Assembly: GCA_014804495.1 (NCBI GenBank)
Contig: JAAUZS010000002.1
Span: forward strand, 12,091 to 22,156
Length of the DNA stretch: 10,066 nt
Direction: 5' to 3'
Source: Lachnospiraceae bacterium
GTDB lineage: Bacteria; Bacillota; Clostridia; Lachnospirales; Lachnospiraceae
In this document: in pieces, positions 2,327-10,066 of the stretch
Layout: each line of letters begins with the position of its first letter
Numbering within the stretch: position 1 is the stretch's first letter
Translations under genes and position numbers: made by a program
The notes under the pieces: model-generated
What the model was told of the DNA's origin: nothing
Databases searched by the model: none
What the model saw: only the letters and a program-made list of their open reading frames with translations

Positions 2327-3271
2327 TTATACCAGTTTGCTTTCGCCAAGCCATCCGGCGATCTTATTCGCAATCAGGAGCAGTGTAATGCCTACTAATG
2401 ACTGGAACATACCGATTGCAGTACCGACACCGTAATTATTGTTACCGATACCTCTCAGATAAGCGAACCAGGAAAGTACCATTGCATGATCCTGAACAAT
2501 TGCATTGCTTAACAACATCTGTCTTTCCATGCCGACATTCAGAGCGCTTCCGACACTCATGATCAGAAGTACGACAACAGTTGGCTTGATACCGGGCAGT
2601 GTAATATGCCAAATCCGCTGTAATCTGTTTGCTCCGTCCACTTTGGCAGCTTCATAGAGCCCCTGATCGATTCCCGCCATTGCCGAAAGATACACAATCG
2701 CATCCCAGCCTACTTCTTTCCATACATTGATGATACAAATAACTACCCAGAACAATGCGGAATTGGTTGACATCAATTTCAGATTCTTTCCCGTAAGCAT
2801 ATCCAGCATTCCGCCATCGTTGAATACCATCTTTGCAATACTCGCAATAACTACCCATGATACGAAATGCGGCAGATAAGAAATGGTCTGTGTGATTTTT
2901 TTGAATTTGACATAACGAAGCTCATTTAACATTAGGGCAAATACAATCGCCGAAACAGTTCCAAGTGCAATTCCCAGTATGCTAAGCGCTATCGTATTGA
3001 TCATTGTCTGTGCGAAAATACGATCTGAAAAGGCTTTAGTAAAGTTATCAAATCCCACAAACGTCCTCTCAAAAAACGAAAGTGCAAATGTCGCCGGTTT
3101 GACATCCTGAAATGCCATTGTCCAGCCCCATAAAGGTATGTACTTAAATATAATTAGCCAAACAACGAAAGGAACTGACATTAAAAGCAGATATCTTTGC
3201 TTATACATCAGCTGCCAGCTGAATTCCTGCTTGATTTTCTTCTGTTTAACTTTTTTCTCTCTGGTTCCCAT
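2327..3271 (-). CDS. Sugar ABC importer permease, LplB/YteP type (CUT1 family)
   Basis: First gene of the minus-strand importer operon and the second membrane subunit of the transporter; 314 residues, typical length. It has a very basic N-terminus (residues 1-14, rich in Lys), a first helix at about 29-48 followed by YIPLWGWTMAF, a motif common in LplB-type permeases, and a conserved EAA loop at about 207-230 (YEAAKVDGAN, then HITLPGIKP). The ATG at 3271 has AGGAGGG at 3278-3284, 6 nt upstream. An overlapping ATG at 3275 is out of frame. It is closely related in design to the permease core of the gene at 7022-8473 but lacks that protein's extra N-terminal membrane domain. It should form a heterodimer with the 1418-2314 product. 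Its promoter must lie in the short gap before the integrase gene. Confidence 0.95.
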   Translation of the reverse strand: MGTREKKVKQKKIKQEFSWQLMYKQRYLLLMSVPFVVWLIIFKYIPLWGWTMAFQDVKPATFALSFFERTFVGFDNFTKAFSDRIFAQTMINTIALSILGIALGTVSAIVFALMLNELRYVKFKKITQTISYLPHFVSWVVIASIAKMVFNDGGMLDMLTGKNLKLMSTNSALFWVVICIINVWKEVGWDAIVYLSAMAGIDQGLYEAAKVDGANRLQRIWHITLPGIKPTVVVLLIMSVGSALNVGMERQMLLSNAIVQDHAMVLSWFAYLRGIGNNNYGVGTAIGMFQSLVGITLLLIANKIAGWLGESKLV

Positions 3272-3322: not shown

Positions 3323-3332
3323 AAATAGAATT

Positions 3333-3347
3333 TTATTGTAAAATTTA
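3333..3347 (-). repeat. 15-bp shared motif TAAATTTTACAATAA, left copy
   Basis: On the minus strand this reads TAAATTTTACAATAA, in the direction of the importer operon, 61 nt before its first start codon. An exact copy lies at 4901-4915 on the plus strand, in the leader of the other operon. The two copies are therefore inverted with respect to each other and surround the integrase. They could be a shared cis-regulatory site, or the terminal inverted repeats of an inserted element. Confidence 0.5.
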
Positions 3348-3399
3348 ATTGTTTTGGAAAAATCTTAGATTGTCGGGGGTTTTGTAGATTTTCAAGCTG

Positions 3400-3421
3400 A
3401 ATTTACTACTGATTTACTACT
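3400..3421 (+). repeat. Left integrase arm-type (DR-2-like) tandem repeat
   Basis: TTTACTACT occurs at 3402-3410 and again at 3413-3421, an 11-bp period, i.e. one helical turn. Its reverse complement, AGTAGTAAA, matches the core of the DR-2 arm site bound by the N-terminal domain of Tn916 Int (as I recall from the published complex). The first copy also has the extra AA that makes AGTAGTAAATT on the other strand. The same arrangement, same orientation and same period, recurs at 4670-4691, just past the integrase stop. Confidence 0.75.
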
Positions 3422-3463
3422 AATACCGAATAATAATTTTTATTTAATGGAGGAAATTGCTTT

Positions 3464-4657
3464 ATGGCAGAGAAAAGACGAGACAGTAAAAATCGTATTT
3501 TACATTTAGGCGAAAGTCAGCGGAAAGATGGGAGATATGCGTATAAGTATACGGATGCTTCAGGAAGAGTACATTTTGTCTATGCCTGGAAATTAGTTCC
3601 TACGGACAGGACTCCTGTGGGAAAACGTGATGACATATCTTTGCGTGAAAAGGAGAAGAAAATTCGAAAAGACCTTGATGACGGAATAAATATGAAAGGC
3701 GGTAAAATAACGGTCCGTGAACTCTATATCAAACAGACAAGACATCATGGAAATGTCAGGTATAACACTGCGCAGGGGCGTAAGCGGCTGATGAAACTCT
3801 TAGAAGAAGACAGACTTGGCTCTTATCCAATTGAAAGCGTGAAGCAGTCTGATGTAAAAGAGTGGGTGCTGCGTATGAAGCAGAAAGGTATATCCTATAA
3901 GACGATTAATAACGATAAGCGGTCACTGAAGGCAGCATTTTATACAGCAATACAAGATGACTGTATAAGAAAAAATCCTTTTGCTTTTCAGCTGAGTACA
4001 GTAATAGAGGATGACACAGCGCCTAAAGTACCGCTTACGTTGGAGCAGGAGGAAAATCTTCTTGCCTTTATTAGTAAAGACAGAATTTATCAAAAGTATT
4101 ATGATGAATTTATTATTCTGTTAGGAACAGGACTGCGTATATCTGAGCTTTGCGGGCTGACCGATTCTAATCTTGATTTTGAAAATAAGACAATCAAGGT
4201 AGACCATCAGCTCCTGAGGAGTGCAGAAACCGGATATTATATTGAAAAACCTAAAACTCAAAGCGGAATAAGACAGATTCCAATGAGCGAGAAAGTGTAC
4301 GCCGCGCTAAGGCGCGTATTAGAAAACCGCAAGGAAGTAAAAAATATTAATATTGATGGCTGGAGCAATTTCCTGTTCCTCAACCGGGACGGATATCCAA
4401 AGACCGCAAGTAATTATGATAATATGTTCAGAAGACTTGTAGAAAAATATAATAAGTTTCATGAGACGGCGCTGCCAAAAGCCATGACGCCTCACACACT
4501 TCGTCATACATTCTGTACCAATCTTGCCAATGCGGGAATGAACCCAAAAGCTTTACAATATGTTATGGGACATTCAAACATATCAATGACACTGGACTAT
4601 TATGCCCATGCGTCTTTTACTACTGCAAAAGCAGAAATGGAACGACTGATTGCTTAG
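3464..4657 (+). CDS. int: Tn916-family tyrosine recombinase (integrase)
   Basis: Catalyses excision and integration of a Tn916-type element. At 397 residues it is close to Tn916 Int (405 residues) and resembles it along its whole length, from the N-terminal motif EKRRDSKNRIL to GMNPKALQY near the C-terminus. Residues 1 to about 75 match the arm-binding domain (GESQRKDGRY, then FVYAWKLV, then GKRDDISLREK). About 85-175 is the SAM-like core-binding domain (YKTINNDKRSLKAAF). About 190-397 is the catalytic domain. The catalytic set looks complete: Arg225 (GTGLRISE), Lys264, His344 and Arg347 (TPHTLRHTF), His370 (MGHSN) and nucleophile Tyr379 (LDYYAH). TGGAGGAA precedes the ATG by 10 nt. Arm-type repeats sit 43 nt before the start and 12 nt after the stop. 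No xis, relaxase, Orf-type conjugation genes or cargo lie next to it. It appears intact, so it may be a recently stranded or a minimal element. Confidence 0.96.
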   Translation: MAEKRRDSKNRILHLGESQRKDGRYAYKYTDASGRVHFVYAWKLVPTDRTPVGKRDDISLREKEKKIRKDLDDGINMKGGKITVRELYIKQTRHHGNVRYNTAQGRKRLMKLLEEDRLGSYPIESVKQSDVKEWVLRMKQKGISYKTINNDKRSLKAAFYTAIQDDCIRKNPFAFQLSTVIEDDTAPKVPLTLEQEENLLAFISKDRIYQKYYDEFIILLGTGLRISELCGLTDSNLDFENKTIKVDHQLLRSAETGYYIEKPKTQSGIRQIPMSEKVYAALRRVLENRKEVKNINIDGWSNFLFLNRDGYPKTASNYDNMFRRLVEKYNKFHETALPKAMTPHTLRHTFCTNLANAGMNPKALQYVMGHSNISMTLDYYAHASFTTAKAEMERLIA

Positions 4658-4669
4658 CTTAATGCGCAT

Positions 4670-4691
4670 AATTTACTACTTTTTTACTACT
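4670..4691 (+). repeat. Right integrase arm-type (DR-2-like) tandem repeat
   Basis: TTTACTACT at 4672-4680 and 4683-4691, again with an 11-bp period. Aligned with the left copy at 3400-3421, 20 of 22 positions agree, and only the 2-bp spacer differs (GA versus TT). The two clusters lie 1270 bp apart in direct orientation with the integrase gene as the only gene between them, as expected for arm sites at the two ends of a Tn916-type element. Confidence 0.75.
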
Positions 4692-4843
4692 TTTGAGAGA
4701 AAATCATAGAACATTGGTTACATGATTGTTTGTTGTATAAATAAAATATCATATAAATAGAAGATTCTGATATATGATAATGCTGATGATTTATTTTAAA
4801 GTGATAAAAAATTTACAATCCGCAAAAAAATTACCAATAATTC

Positions 4844-4872
4844 TTGTCTTTCTATAGATATATTGCTATAAT
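4844..4872 (+). promoter_or_regulatory. Sigma-A promoter of the plus-strand surface protein/importer operon
   Basis: TTGTCT (4844-4849, 4 of 6 to consensus), a spacer of exactly 17 nt, and a perfect TATAAT (4867-4872). RNA would start at about 4879, giving a leader of roughly 184 nt before the ATG at 5063. A short inverted pair, TATAG (4853-4857) and CTATA (4866-4870), lies across the spacer and -10 box and could be an operator, though it may be chance in AT-rich DNA. Confidence 0.65.
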
Positions 4873-4900
4873 AAATTAAGATACATCGTAAATAAAAAGG

Positions 4901-4915
4901 TAAATTTTACAATAA
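4901..4915 (+). repeat. 15-bp shared motif TAAATTTTACAATAA, right copy
   Basis: Exact match, on the opposite strand, to 3333-3347. It lies about 29 bp downstream of the -10 box of the plus-strand operon, hence inside the predicted transcript, 147 nt before the start codon. With the G before it, it contains the odd palindrome GTAAATTTTAC (4900-4910), which would suit a dimeric repressor. Confidence 0.5.
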
Positions 4916-4974
4916 TATTTGCAGAGTTGTAATTATTTTTTCTTAATTAAAGTATTCAAACTGCCCATATCAGA

Positions 4975-5062: not shown

Positions 5063-6922
5063 ATGAAAAGGTTAAAGAAGTTGTTAGCGACTGTATCTGC
5101 CGGCATATTTGCCTGCGTGCTTACACTTTCACCTTTGTCTGTGTATGCAGCTCAGGATGCGTCCGGGCTGGAAGACGGCACAGCGTACCTCAACATTAAC
5201 AATGAGGAATGGGGAGAGTTTGAAGCAGAGTGGACAAATGCCAAGATTACAGGAGACGGTTCCTATACCGTTGGTATGGAAGCCAAAGAAGGTCAGAGCC
5301 TTGTGCAGTTCAATGCACTTGAGGTAGTAAACGGTGAGTCTTATCTTGGAACAGGCTGTGTACTTACTGTAGACAGTATCAAGATTAACGGTGAAGAAGT
5401 AGAACTTCAGGGTTCAAGTTATACCTGTTCCGCAGACGGCGGCGGCGTAACTACACGTGTTAATATCTACAATGAGTGGAACAGCCCTGATGCAACTGCT
5501 ACGGCAGGCGAAGGCGATGACAAGCATTTGGATAACCGTGTAGCAGAAGGCAGTGTAGAAGATGCGGTAGCATGTCTTTTCTCAAGCGATTATGTTAATG
5601 CATCATCAGGCAGCGGATTCCTTGTAGAATCACTTGAAGTTGCATTTACAGTATCCGGATTTGGTACTCAGGCAGAAGCTGCAAGCGGCGATGGAGCACA
5701 GACAGCAGAAGGTCCTGCAATTGCTCATTTGAGCATCAACAATGAAGAATGGTCAGAATATGAAGCAGAGTATGTAGATGCAGAAATTACCGGCGACGGT
5801 ACTTACACAGTATCTATGAAGGCTTCTGAAGGTCAGAGCCTTGTACAGTTCAATGCTCTTGAAGTTGAGAACGGCGAGCTTATTTTAGGAACAGCTTATA
5901 CTATTACAGTAGACAGCATCAAGATTAACGGCGAAGAAGTAGAACTTCAGGGACCGAGTTATACATGCTCCGCAGATGGCGGCGGTGTAAACACCCGTGT
6001 AAATCTTTACAATGAATGGAACAACCCTGACGAGACAGCTACGGCAGGTGATGATAATCATATAGACAATCGTGTAGCAGATGGCAGTGTTATGGACGCA
6101 ACAGCATGTCTGTTCTCCAGCGACTATGTTAATGCGTCATCAGGAAGCGGATTCCTTGTAGAATCCATAGAAGTAACCTTTACGGTAGCAGGAGTTGGCG
6201 AACTGGCATCAGCAGGTGAAGCAGCAACTCCGGACGCTGTTGATTTAAACGGAACTTATAATGCATATATCGGTCTTCAGACACCGAACTTCTCTTTCCG
6301 TAATGCTTTTGATGATGAGACTTACGGACGTGACACGGAATATTTCAACCAGATTACAGGTTGGGAAGGCAGCGATGCAATTGTTAAGGATGGTACCTTG
6401 ACAGATGCCGTAATCGCAGGTAATGGTACATATACTATTTCTGCAAACGGAATGAATCTTGAAGGCGATTTTGAATCTCAGGATTACATGAATTTGATTT
6501 TTATTTCTACCGATATTCCTAATACCGGTGAGATTACAATTTCTGATATTAAATTGAGTATCGACGGAAGGGATGTACAGTGCAGCCCGATTTTGAGTCC
6601 GGACTCAGTAAATTATGTAAATATGCTGATCCAGAATATCTGGAATGAAGATGTAGCAACGATTGGTTACTATGCAGTACCGCCTAAGGATATAGAGATT
6701 ACTTTCACTGTATCGGGCTTTGCATATGATAATGAAGCTGCAGCAGATACGGCGGAACCGGAGACAACTGAAGAACCGGCAGAATCTGAACCTGCAGAAG
6801 AAGCTCCGGCAGCAGAGGAATCTTCTTCTATGTCACCTGTAGTTATTGTAATTATTGTAGTAGTTGTAGTTGCAGTAATTGCCGGAGTTGCAGTTGTTCT
6901 TAGCAAGAAGAAAAAAGACTGA
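5063..6922 (+). CDS. Secreted membrane-anchored surface protein with three repeats of an unrecognised beta-rich domain
   Basis: First gene of the plus-strand operon, 619 residues; I cannot name the family. A Sec signal peptide covers residues 1 to about 30 (Lys-rich start, hydrophobic core, cleavage near VYAA). Domain 1 is about 39-201 and domain 2 about 217-379, aligned at a fixed 180-residue offset (INNEEW at 45 and 225) and about three-quarters identical by eye. Each has a Cys pair, 122/171 and 302/349, in TCSADGGG and ACLFSSDYVNASSGSG. Domain 3 (about 397-553) is a diverged copy keeping NGTYTI, a single Cys507, QNIWNE and IEITFTVSGF. A Pro/Glu/Ala-rich spacer (555-590) leads to a Val/Ile-rich membrane helix (592-613) and a SKKKKD tail. 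There is no LPXTG, so it is a C-terminally membrane-anchored ectodomain, not sortase-linked. AGGAGG is 7 nt before the ATG. Its position before the importer genes suggests a carbohydrate-binding or sugar-presenting role (inference). Confidence 0.9.
   Translation: MKRLKKLLATVSAGIFACVLTLSPLSVYAAQDASGLEDGTAYLNINNEEWGEFEAEWTNAKITGDGSYTVGMEAKEGQSLVQFNALEVVNGESYLGTGCVLTVDSIKINGEEVELQGSSYTCSADGGGVTTRVNIYNEWNSPDATATAGEGDDKHLDNRVAEGSVEDAVACLFSSDYVNASSGSGFLVESLEVAFTVSGFGTQAEAASGDGAQTAEGPAIAHLSINNEEWSEYEAEYVDAEITGDGTYTVSMKASEGQSLVQFNALEVENGELILGTAYTITVDSIKINGEEVELQGPSYTCSADGGGVNTRVNLYNEWNNPDETATAGDDNHIDNRVADGSVMDATACLFSSDYVNASSGSGFLVESIEVTFTVAGVGELASAGEAATPDAVDLNGTYNAYIGLQTPNFSFRNAFDDETYGRDTEYFNQITGWEGSDAIVKDGTLTDAVIAGNGTYTISANGMNLEGDFESQDYMNLIFISTDIPNTGEITISDIKLSIDGRDVQCSPILSPDSVNYVNMLIQNIWNEDVATIGYYAVPPKDIEITFTVSGFAYDNEAAADTAEPETTEEPAESEPAEEAPAAEESSSMSPVVIVIIVVVVVAVIAGVAVVLSKKKKD
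5177..5665 (+). repeat. Tandem coding repeat, unit 1 (domain 1 of the surface protein)
   Basis: Codons 39-201. The central part lines up with unit 2 at an exact 540-bp offset. Identical stretches are short (for example GAAGAAGTAGAACTTCAGGG), separated by many third-position changes, so the protein is conserved more than the DNA. Confidence 0.85.
5711..6199 (+). repeat. Tandem coding repeat, unit 2 (domain 2 of the surface protein)
   Basis: Codons 217-379. It is colinear with unit 1 except for a two-codon deletion in the acidic segment after ATAG (GEGDDKH in unit 1, DDNH in unit 2). A third, much diverged copy follows at codons 397-553 and is visible only at the protein level. Confidence 0.85.
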
Positions 6923-6993: not shown

Positions 6994-7021
6994 CTATTAC
7001 TCCTAACATATGGAGGTGTTT

Positions 7022-8473
7022 ATGAAAGAAAATAATGAAAAATTTACAGATAAAGTTTATTATGTGCAGCGTATTGCAACGCTTCTTGCAACTGCGCTTA
7101 TTTTTTTCCCGGCAGCGACGCCTTCCAGAATCTGTACAATGATTAATAAAAACCTGTCGCTGTTTACGTCGGGTCTTTTCTATAGCAGTCTGACAGCTGA
7201 GATGGGGCGTGCATTTAACAGAGGATGGATTGTGCAGGGGACTATCGTTCTGCTGTATGTGGCTTCTCTGATCATGCTTTTGGGAATAGCTGCTGCGGCA
7301 GCCGGCGGATGTATGTCTTTGGGCAACCTGAAGTTTAAAAGGCTGGGAAATATCTTTTCGCTGGTCGGAGCGGCGGGTGAGATTCTGGGACTCATTTTGA
7401 TTTATGTTTCTTATGTGCAGATACAAGGAACCAGTAATTATGATAAAGTAGGACCTATGTTTCCTACCGGCTATATTGTATATCTGATTCTGACTGTACT
7501 GTTATTAGTTTCAACTATAGCTAATCTGGTATTACTGCCTAAACCGGAGAAGGACAGTAATTATGAGATGGAATCCAGATTTAAGCTGTTTCTGATGTTT
7601 CTCCCTTTCGCAACATTGTGTTTCGTATTCAGTTATCTGCCGCTTTGGGGATGGAGATATGCTTTCTTCAATTATTCGGCGGGCGGAACCTTGTCCATGG
7701 AAAATTTTGTAGGATTTAAATGGTTCACATCGCTGTTTCAGAGTCAGGCAACTAAGTCAGACGTAGTTCGTGTACTTCGTAATACATTAGCAATGAGCGG
7801 TCTGGGAATTGCCACCAGTTGGTGCGCAATGGCGTTTGCCATATTCTTAAATGAAATTAAAAATATCAGATTCCGTCGTTTTGTACAGACCTTTACAACA
7901 ATCCCTAACTTTATAAGCTGGGTTTTGGTATATGCTATCGCGTTTGCAATTTTTTCTACAGACGGTTTTGTAAATACCGCAGCTGCGCAGCTTGGGATAT
8001 TGTCAAGCGGAGACGTAGGGACAAACTATTTGATGAGTAATTCCCACATCTGGATCAAGATGCTTGCATGGGGTATGTGGAAAGGTATCGGATGGAGTGC
8101 AATTATCTACATAGCAGGTATTTCCGGTATTGACCAGCAGCTCTACGAGGCGGCGACGGTGGATGGAGCAGGACGTTTCGCCAAGATGTGGCACGTAACT
8201 CTGCCCGGTCTGATTCCTACATATTGTGTTATGCTGCTGATGTCCATTGCCAATATCTTAAGTAATGGTATGGATCAGTACATGGTATTCCATAATAAGG
8301 TAAATCTTGACACAATTCAGGTTCTTGATTTTTATGTATATACGCTGGGTATTCAAAATGGAAATATTCCGCTGTCCACGGTTATAGGTATGGTGAAATC
8401 GGTTATCAGTGTTATTCTTTTGTTTGCTGCAAACGGCATTTCCAAAGCTGTCCGTGGTGAGAGCATTGTGTAA
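7022..8473 (+). CDS. N-terminally extended sugar ABC importer permease, LplB type
   Basis: Membrane subunit of the second importer; 483 residues from the ATG at 7022, against about 300 for ordinary family members. This start is preferred because TGGAGGTG at 7011-7018 is correctly placed for it (5 nt from GGAGG), whereas the in-frame ATG at 7010 overlaps that site. Residues 187-483 are a normal LplB-type permease: FSYLPLWGWRYAFF at about 203-216, and the EAA loop at about 375-399 (YEAATVDGAG, then HVTLPGLIP). Residues 1 to about 178 form an added domain with four predicted helices (about 17-33, 68-96, 109-133 and 149-174), separated from the core by a charged linker (KPEKDSNYEMESR). I do not recognise that domain; it could be sensory, a docking surface for the upstream surface protein, or an assembly module. 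The partner permease starts 14 nt downstream. Confidence 0.94.
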   Translation: MKENNEKFTDKVYYVQRIATLLATALIFFPAATPSRICTMINKNLSLFTSGLFYSSLTAEMGRAFNRGWIVQGTIVLLYVASLIMLLGIAAAAAGGCMSLGNLKFKRLGNIFSLVGAAGEILGLILIYVSYVQIQGTSNYDKVGPMFPTGYIVYLILTVLLLVSTIANLVLLPKPEKDSNYEMESRFKLFLMFLPFATLCFVFSYLPLWGWRYAFFNYSAGGTLSMENFVGFKWFTSLFQSQATKSDVVRVLRNTLAMSGLGIATSWCAMAFAIFLNEIKNIRFRRFVQTFTTIPNFISWVLVYAIAFAIFSTDGFVNTAAAQLGILSSGDVGTNYLMSNSHIWIKMLAWGMWKGIGWSAIIYIAGISGIDQQLYEAATVDGAGRFAKMWHVTLPGLIPTYCVMLLMSIANILSNGMDQYMVFHNKVNLDTIQVLDFYVYTLGIQNGNIPLSTVIGMVKSVISVILLFAANGISKAVRGESIV

Positions 8474-8487
8474 GGGGGTGTGGTTAA

Positions 8488-9453
8488 ATGGCGAAAACTA
8501 AACAGGAAAAACTGGATCAAAAAGCGGAAAGGGAATATGAGAAGAAGCATAAGCCTAAATGGCAGCGCACACCGGGAAATGTTATTTTTAACATCCTGAA
8601 CTATTCCTTTTATACATTGTTTACTTTGAGTTGTATCTTCCCCTTTTATTACTTGTTTATTAATACGATTTCAGACAATGACATGGTGAGGAAGGGTCAG
8701 ATAGCCTTGATTCCGCACGGAATCAATATTCACAATTACATAGCGATGCTTCAGGTGTCGGATCTTGGAAATGCGTTCCTTGTTTCAATTGCAAGAACAG
8801 TGATAGGAACAGCCACTATGGTTGCGGCAACCGCACTGGTAGGATATTTGGTCACCAAACAGGAGATGTGGCACAGAAAATTCTGGTATCGTTTTCTGGT
8901 AATAACCATGTACTTTAATGCCGGAACGATTCCATGGTATTTGAATATGTCCATGCTGGGTCTGACGAACCACTTTGCGGCATATATCATTCCGGGAATT
9001 GTGGCGCCTTACAATATTATTCTGGTGAAGACATATATTGAGTCCATTCCTTCCGAACTGGAGGAGAGTGCGCTTATAGACGGAGCCGGATTTATGACAG
9101 TATTTAGAAGAATTATATGGCCCTTAAGTAAGCCGATATTGGCGACAATAGCTATCTTCGGCGCAGTAGGTCATTGGAACTCCTTTACGGATTCGCTGAT
9201 TCTGATGCAGAATGCGCCTTCGCTTTATACATTACAGCACAGACTGTACATTTATCTGAACACTAACTCCAATCTGGCGCAGATTATGAGTACGAGCGGT
9301 TCGGGTGCAACGGCGGCGGCACAGTCGGCTATGAGTACTAAAGTTTTGAAATATACCATTTCAATGGTAACGGTTATACCAATCCTTATGGTCTATCCTT
9401 TCATGCAGCGGTATTTTGAAAAAGGTATTATGCTGGGAGCGGTCAAAGGATAA
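8488..9453 (+). CDS. Sugar ABC importer permease, LplC/YtcP type (CUT1 family)
   Basis: Second membrane subunit of the right-hand importer, 321 residues. The cytoplasmic N-terminus is long and highly charged (residues 1-28, mostly Lys/Glu), then helices run from about 31. The EAA loop lies at about 191-216 and departs slightly from consensus: EESALIDGAG replaces EAA-x-x-DGA, followed by IIWPLSKP. The C-terminus, VYPFMQRYF then GAVKG, matches the LplC branch and closely parallels the 1418-2314 product, so the two are paralogues. A GGGGGTG ribosome binding site at 8474-8480 directly follows the upstream stop, and the ATG at 8488 is 14 nt after that stop. A Gly/Ala/Ser-rich insert (STSGSGATAAAQSA, about 268-281) occupies a loop before the last helix. 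Confidence 0.95.
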   Translation: MAKTKQEKLDQKAEREYEKKHKPKWQRTPGNVIFNILNYSFYTLFTLSCIFPFYYLFINTISDNDMVRKGQIALIPHGINIHNYIAMLQVSDLGNAFLVSIARTVIGTATMVAATALVGYLVTKQEMWHRKFWYRFLVITMYFNAGTIPWYLNMSMLGLTNHFAAYIIPGIVAPYNIILVKTYIESIPSELEESALIDGAGFMTVFRRIIWPLSKPILATIAIFGAVGHWNSFTDSLILMQNAPSLYTLQHRLYIYLNTNSNLAQIMSTSGSGATAAAQSAMSTKVLKYTISMVTVIPILMVYPFMQRYFEKGIMLGAVKG

Positions 9454-9503: not shown

Positions 9504-10066
9504 ATGAAGAAGATGAAGAAATTTGCGGCATTGTTCCTGTGTGTGGCAATGACCGCAGGACTGTTGGCGGGCTGTGGTTCTAATCCTTCAGCCGGCGGCG
9601 GTAATTCAGACGGAGACAGTGGCGCTTCTAGCGGAGGAAATGGCGGAGAACCTATTACTCTTACCGTGTTCAGTCAGCTGGCGAACTATTCCGGTGAGCA
9701 GTCCGGATGGTCTGCAGATATTCTGTTAGATAAGTTCAATGTTATACTGAACATCGTACCCGACTTAAACGGTACCTATCAGACCCGTATGGAGGGTGGA
9801 GATTTAGGTGATATCGTAGTGTTCGGAAGTGACGGCGACCAATATGTGAATGCTGTCAATGCAGGACTTCTGCTTGATTGGAATGAAGAAAATCTGGTGC
9901 AGGAATATGGTCCTTATATCTATGAGCATATGCAGAATGCACTGGATTATAATGCAAGTATTTCCGGTGGTACGACTTATGGCTTTGGTCATAATGTAGC
10001 AAGCAGTATGCAGGATCATGAGGCATTCTTCTATACATGGGATATTCGCTGGGATTTGTATAAAGA
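9504..10066 (+). CDS. Extracellular solute-binding lipoprotein of the right-hand importer (partial, C-terminus off the window)
   Basis: Receptor lipoprotein for the second importer; 187 residues are visible and the frame is open at the window end. The signal peptide has Lys2, Lys3, Lys5 and Lys6, a hydrophobic core, and the lipobox LAGC with Cys24. A Gly/Ser-rich linker (about 25-48) leads to a mature domain starting EPITLTVFSQLANYSG. The following segments, TRMEGGDLGDIVVFG and AGLLLDWNEENLVQEYGPYI, fit the early lobe of family 1 binding proteins, where the low-affinity-unfolded, goal-of-binding region is described as a periplasmic-type fold (family knowledge). AGGAG at 9491-9495 is 8 nt before the ATG. 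The 50-bp gap after the permease contains no terminator, so it is probably co-transcribed. It differs strongly from the left operon's lipoprotein, suggesting a different sugar. Confidence 0.93.
   Translation, partial: MKKMKKFAALFLCVAMTAGLLAGCGSNPSAGGGNSDGDSGASSGGNGGEPITLTVFSQLANYSGEQSGWSADILLDKFNVILNIVPDLNGTYQTRMEGGDLGDIVVFGSDGDQYVNAVNAGLLLDWNEENLVQEYGPYIYEHMQNALDYNASISGGTTYGFGHNVASSMQDHEAFFYTWDIRWDLYK

Follow-up and report, generated by a model that had tools for sequence, protein, structure and literature searches.

The window, a stretch of 10,066 nt from a Lachnospiraceae bacterium (assembly GCA_014804495.1, contig JAAUZS010000002.1, positions 12,091-22,156, forward strand), carries between two divergent ATP-binding cassette (ABC) transporter operons a compact unit built around int, the gene of a Tn1549/Tn916-type tyrosine recombinase. 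The unit measures 1,569 bp between its termini (3340-4908), or spans 3335-4913 with the crossovers; between 3340 and 4908 no gene other than int is present, and the list of open reading frames (ORFs) holds no conjugation genes between the ends. The same type of unit occurs in the own genome (G000) and in three others (G007, G011 and G021), and a sister unit lies at the locus L067 (UBA7480). The core sites were parsed by the Tn1549 scheme, whose terminal repeats are imperfect and 11 bp long, whose crossovers have 5-7 nt and whose target is TTTT-n6-AAAA (PMC5871717). The features of the unit are:

3329-3350, + strand: left core site, with the outer half AATTTT, the crossover ATTGT (3335-3339) and the left terminal repeat AAAATTTAATT (3340-3350); aligned to Tn1549-type left ends
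3402-3421, + strand: left (upstream) arm-type pair, TTTACTACT-GA-TTTACTACT; counterpart of the Tn1549-type left-end arm pair
3464-4657, + strand: int, Tn1549/Tn916-type tyrosine recombinase of 397 aa, intact
4672-4691, + strand: right (downstream) arm-type pair, common to relatives
4844-4872, + strand: promoter-like site TTGTCT-17-TATAAT with TGn before the second hexamer, a consensus match inside the unit that faces right
4898-4920, + strand: right core site, with the right terminal repeat AGGTAAATTTT (4898-4908), the crossover ACAAT (4909-4913) and the outer half AATATTT

Judged from its sequence, the stretch 3335-4913 is what is left of a Tn1549-like element, with both ends, both arm pairs and int. 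The first-pass annotation had placed the feature at 3400-4691, which is right for the two arm pairs but not for the limits of the unit, whose true ends are 3340 and 4908; its remark that int has neither xis nor cargo with it holds, int standing alone between the ends. The repeat, not homology, defines the right end; ordinary right ends sit ~65 bp nearer to int, and a vestige of one at ~4828-4844 was dropped, as it is not conserved in G007 or G021. No Rfam family was found in the window.

As for the arm-type sites, TTTACTACT occurs exactly on the + strand at 3402, 3413, 4672 and 4683, in agreement with the tandem pairs described earlier before and after int, and the 22-nt pairs at 3400-3421 and 4670-4691 are 91% alike. 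A fifth exact copy, within int at 4616, is absent at that place in the other three genomes and for this reason is probably due to chance. With at most one mismatch, the motif has nine matches against a chance mean of 2.79, a number reached in one of 200 shuffles; among relatives, G007 and G021 each have a mismatch in one upstream copy and G011 in one downstream copy, and of the two upstream copies in L067 one is well preserved, the other decayed. AGTAGTAAA, which we take to be the DR-2 site of Tn916, gave no match in the literature search. The downstream pair is ordinary: in 80 relative int loci from GTDB contigs, at least one TTTACTAC lies within 60 bp after int in every case, and two in 68. 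Upstream, TTTACTAC is found within 700 bp of int, among 148 rows, only in the eight rows of the window lineage (five units) and in one other, which has a single copy at -460. Left ends were searched with the tandem arm pattern in 16 genomes, and the end alignment covers 18 of 30 loci; ordinary elements read AAAATGGTTGATTATC...TTTCAAGCTGAATTTACTACC-AA-TTTACTAC, with 64 bp from terminus to arm, and the window reads AAAATTTAATTGTTTTGG...TTTTCAAGCTGAATTTACTACT-GA-TTTACTAC, with 62 bp. Because of this alignment, the upstream pair is read as the left end of an element that directly abuts int.

Seventy-three of the relatives could be evaluated for xis: an ORF of 55-105 codons ending 70-115 bp before int is present in 61, and it belongs to the Pfam family Tn916-Xis in the four cases examined; three of the 12 relatives that lack it are the window's own (L059-L061). 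No xis ORF precedes int in the window, the rest of the genome not having been searched for one. An ORF at the usual place of xis is also missing from a Tn1549-type element of another genome (L105, G062:C1:2577826-2586940), which has ~9.1 kb between its arm pairs.

Regarding the integrase, the earlier call of an intact Tn916-family protein proved correct: the open frame of 397 aa combines PF02920 (arm-binding) and PF00589 (tyrosine recombinase), it matches the solved Tn1549 Int over residues 82-397 (E 2.3e-154), and its RKHRH and YY residues are preserved. Strong purifying selection acts on int, with a ratio of nonsynonymous to synonymous substitutions (dN/dS) of 0.046-0.063 in six pairs (0.010-0.072 for the flanking genes), and in all five units the catalytic residues are invariant and stops are absent. 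A quick tree, from which four rows with stops were excluded, joins the integrases of the five units in one clade (support 99); with a protein collection added (60 of 120 listed proteins, among 545 matches), the clade has about ten distinct members (0.95), with an architecture readable in only five. Each of the five genomes has one copy of the unit. Genus-wide, the four solo integrases score 894-902 bits and the next integrase 809, and the closest other match in the own genome, a second Tn916-type integrase on another contig (G000:C20:9868-11055), is 46% identical and has counterparts in many genomes of the genus. The contigs that carry two solo-clade integrases, P0007 and P0008, are 1697 and 1757 bp long, close to the length of a complete unit, and in three related integrases (P0003, P0009 and P0024; 475-501 aa) a stretch of the protein is duplicated internally in tandem, possibly an assembly artefact.

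The two core sites are mirror images of each other. In the window, G007 and G021 they form a 15-bp exact inverted repeat that runs through the crossover bases, and the crossover of the window unit reads ATTGT inward from either side. L067 repeats this layout amid different genes, with a DUF6320 gene on its right: upstream arms, int without xis, the right pair and an exact inverted repeat of 16 bp whose letters differ. When the six bases outside the termini are compared in inverted register, all six match in both the window and L067; the same test on nine control elements with both ends in hand, classed as Tn1549-type, gave 2, 4, 1, 0, 1, 3, 4, 3 and 1 of 6. Their longest exact left-right repeat is 7-10 bp, and one of them, G064, matches at 6/6 in direct register. 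An inverted repeat of at least 12 bp spanning int within 450 bp was found in none of the 140 non-lineage rows (148 in total; some flanks were shorter), and shuffles of the flanks attained the observed repeat length in 3/2000 cases for the window and in 0/2000 for L067.

Conservation centers on the same sites. The left core is a block of 22 bp invariant in four genomes, the longest of the left intergenic alignment (0/5000 column shuffles), and the right core is a 23-bp block invariant in the own genome, G007 and G021, the longest of the right alignment (39/5000). The G011 unit is split over two contigs and not readable in one piece; its right core, on the separate contig, has the same 22 letters and was excluded from the right alignment. 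The break between these contigs (C24/C174) falls between the equivalents of window positions 4772 and ~4877, a place where mixed orientations, or chance, may have interrupted the assembly. The 14-mer of the window clade is exact at both unit ends and nowhere else in G000, G007, G011 and G021; over seven genomes, eight of its nine exact matches are at unit ends, and the ninth is in G034, which has no unit. Likewise, the genome of L067 has its 15-mer only twice, at the two unit ends. A genome-wide regulator motif was rejected, the one-mismatch matches of the 14-mer being about as many as those of a reversed-pattern control. Ends that differ between units and yet agree within a unit, crossover included, would be the trace expected of inversion.

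These terminal inverted repeats with matching crossovers, which were not part of the first-pass annotation, point to inversion. The Tn1549-type remnant very likely still acts on its own ends, and its action is most likely that of an invertase; taken as a whole, we hold it somewhat more probable than the opposite that a Tn1549-like remnant has turned into a resident, self-contained DNA invertase. Int would recombine the two mirror-image cores across their identical crossovers, so that the 1.57-kb segment inverts. Excision joins the ends in direct register and uses Xis in the Tn916/Tn1549 family; inversion would join them in inverted register and, because both orientations would present the same inner ends, a directionality factor or excisionase would be dispensable, in keeping with the missing xis. 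Taken together, the lost xis, crossovers that match when inverted, cores that do not vary, an intact active site and divergent genes on either side fit inversion. In vivo assays of Tn1549 expressed Xis together with Int (PMC5871717). L067 Int lacks R153 and Y160, residues that in Tn1549 Int serve base flipping at the crossover (PMC5871717); matched crossovers might, as a guess, relax the need for them.

What inversion would do to the neighbours is less secure. The site at 4844-4872 has 10/12 consensus matches and lies ~35 bp inside the right end, and an extended -10 is found at a like place in G007, G021 and L067. Over the 190 bp after int, an extended -10 is present in one of 79 loci, L067, the copies of the window clade falling just past this range; promoter-like sites overall numbered 12, against a shuffle mean of 7.2 (sd 2.7), and were counted as not rarer in shuffles. 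In the orientation seen, the inner site would read into the right glycan operon; after a flip, transcription from it would enter the left, divergent ABC operon through a leader of ~98 nt. A Hin-like switch of the neighbouring operons is plausible, given the promoter-like site in the right end and the divergent ABC-transporter operons; control by flipping is the least secure step of the proposal.

Several observations weigh against a resident invertase. The inverted form was not seen, the four genomes, all consensus assemblies, having the same orientation, and the arm pairs retain the direct layout of an excising element. Two of the control elements, G057 and G063a, reach 4/6 in inverted register, G057 being the most similar of the nine to the solo units, with inner repeats 10/11 alike, and the length of the window repeat is by itself only moderately rare. 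The synonymous divergence (dS) of int exceeds that of its neighbours (0.65 against 0.22-0.39 between the own genome and G011). As for the promoters, the -35 boxes of the inner sites are weak, an extended -10 arises in 369/5000 simple shuffles, and in L067 the promoter-like site faces a convergent gene, with the left neighbour off the contig. Finally, the right core overlaps a promoter-like -35 (TTTACA) with, in G021, its -10 outside the unit, and because of this overlap part of the right-core conservation could be conservation of a promoter.

This overlap is also the start of a different explanation, in which the sites have a regulatory use without recombination: the repeats together with the arms would serve as an operator bound by Int or another protein, or the repeats would function as outward promoter elements (TTTACAAT) of the divergent operons. 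The second promoter-like site of G021, TTTACA-16-TATAAT with its -35 in the right core, agrees with it, as does G018, which has no int but carries ATTGTAAAA in the leader of its orthologue of the left permease. However, the L067 repeats are perfect and contain no TTTACA, the left core is unchanged in G021 despite the loss of the left operon, and the catalytic residues are invariant in the five units, so that we consider this use improbable. The unit could also be mobile at present, as a 1.57-kb Tn1549-type mini-transposon with int only, which moves rarely by its own Int, perhaps with Xis from resident elements, and whose repeats are plain terminal repeats. Its Tn1549-type ends and AT-rich junctions, the number of distinct integrases in the clade and the two different loci in the lineage speak for such an element, and the position of L067 means that the unit at one time moved or had its origin elsewhere. 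Nevertheless, mobility as present behaviour, one of the three options given by the first-pass annotation, is unsupported by the residence of the unit, single in each genome, with no empty site found, and sharing one location among four species whose dS reaches 1.4; moreover, the outer 6 bp differ between units and match inverted within a unit, which Tn1549-type integration does not predict. We thus rate it as unlikely, if a little less so than the regulatory use.

The last alternative, a deletion relic fixed in place and inert, agrees with the absence of xis and cargo and with the shared location in all four species, but it was rejected on the selection that acts on int: the low dN/dS, the five frames without a stop and the two invariant cores make it very improbable. 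By the first-pass annotation, a fixed relic would show itself by the lack of an empty site and of a second copy, together with decayed catalytic residues in some genomes, a picture matched in part: neither an empty site nor a second copy was found, and no decayed copy either. Among the three options, an integrase kept for a local site fits best, and a deletion relic is right for the origin of the unit only.

The residence of the unit is shown by the neighbouring genes. In G011, G007 and G021 it occupies the same place, ahead of a shared surface gene; by deletion, G021 has lost the left ABC operon, which the other three genomes retain. The surface gene is found over its full length only in these four of the 77 genus genomes (any match in 6/77), and no empty site was found among the 77. 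G018, with a left-permease orthologue of 91% and no int, was rejected as an empty site, since the region beyond that gene differs. In G021 (L060) the deletion ends in what was the 3' part of the binding-protein gene, with its junction no more than ~20 bp from the left core; a deletion made by Int is not claimed, this end being close to the left core and not at the crossover. Further units were not found among the loci scanned in 397 family genomes, 144 relatives of the L067 genome and viral contigs; in the 397-genome scan four candidates were scored per genome, so that misses are possible, and the loci returned were those scanned for architecture. The L067 contig begins 36 bp before the left repeat, where mixed orientations or chance may break the assembly.

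As for known systems, the Hin segment of Salmonella holds a promoter within the invertible segment. RecV of Clostridioides difficile, PsrA of Streptococcus pneumoniae and FimB/FimE have, to our knowledge, no arm-binding domain, and their genes lie outside the invertible segment. The window unit resembles the first in having the recombinase gene inside the segment (PMC5903667), although Hin is a serine recombinase and the window enzyme a tyrosine integrase originating from an integrative and conjugative element, for which inversion is proposed from the letters of the DNA. With the others it shares a tyrosine recombinase with short inverted repeats (PMC2784873 and PMC7096588), of which IR1 of PsrA has 15 bp (PMC7096588); RecV differs in being described as XerC/XerD-like (PMC2784873), and the available portion of the PsrA text makes no mention of Tn916 (PMC7096588). 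As in invertons, inverted repeats with matching crossovers flank the segment. The conjugative transposons Tn1549/Tn916 have in common with the unit the arm-binding domain of Int, arm pairs at both ends, 11-bp AT-rich terminal repeats and crossovers of 5-7 nt (PMC5871717); unlike them, the unit has no xis, conjugation or cargo genes, its crossovers match inverted, and it is resident at one site. In the literature searched, mostly outside subscription journals and including accessible portions of PMC5903667, PMC7096588, PMC8138268 and PMC2784873, no case of a Tn916-type integrase acting in inversion was found.

A resident invertase of this origin would directly exemplify the conversion of a conjugative-transposon integrase to inversion, with the change of direction from excision made by the loss of xis and matching crossovers, and it would connect Tn916-type elements with glycan uptake in gut bacteria, which may be phase-variable. 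A wider and more tentative idea, which we think possible but hold with less confidence, is that a Tn1549-type lineage shrank to a portable, Xis-free switch of 1.6 kb, made of the integrase, two ends and an outward promoter, that settled at different loci in different Lachnospiraceae of the gut, phase-varies the adjoining operons by flipping in place and keeps its ends identical by repeated inversion.

The genes on the two sides of the unit in the window are:

3-1388 and beyond, - strand: left operon, binding protein
1418-2314, - strand: left operon, second permease
2327-3271, - strand: left ABC permease, first gene of the divergent left operon (Pfam/NCBIfam)
5063-6922, + strand: first gene of the right operon, predicted surface protein with two repeated domains and a C-terminal membrane anchor, by eye
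7010-9453, + strand: right operon, two ABC permeases (7010-8473 and 8488-9453)
9504-10066, + strand, running off the window: right operon, binding-protein-like gene with no Pfam family

Beyond the window, the right operon continues with DUF624, GH5 and BD-FAE-type esterase genes, and the left operon adjoins a GH31 gene. The surface protein (5063-6922) belongs to no Pfam or NCBIfam family, and its tandem domains are 76-79% alike in DNA.
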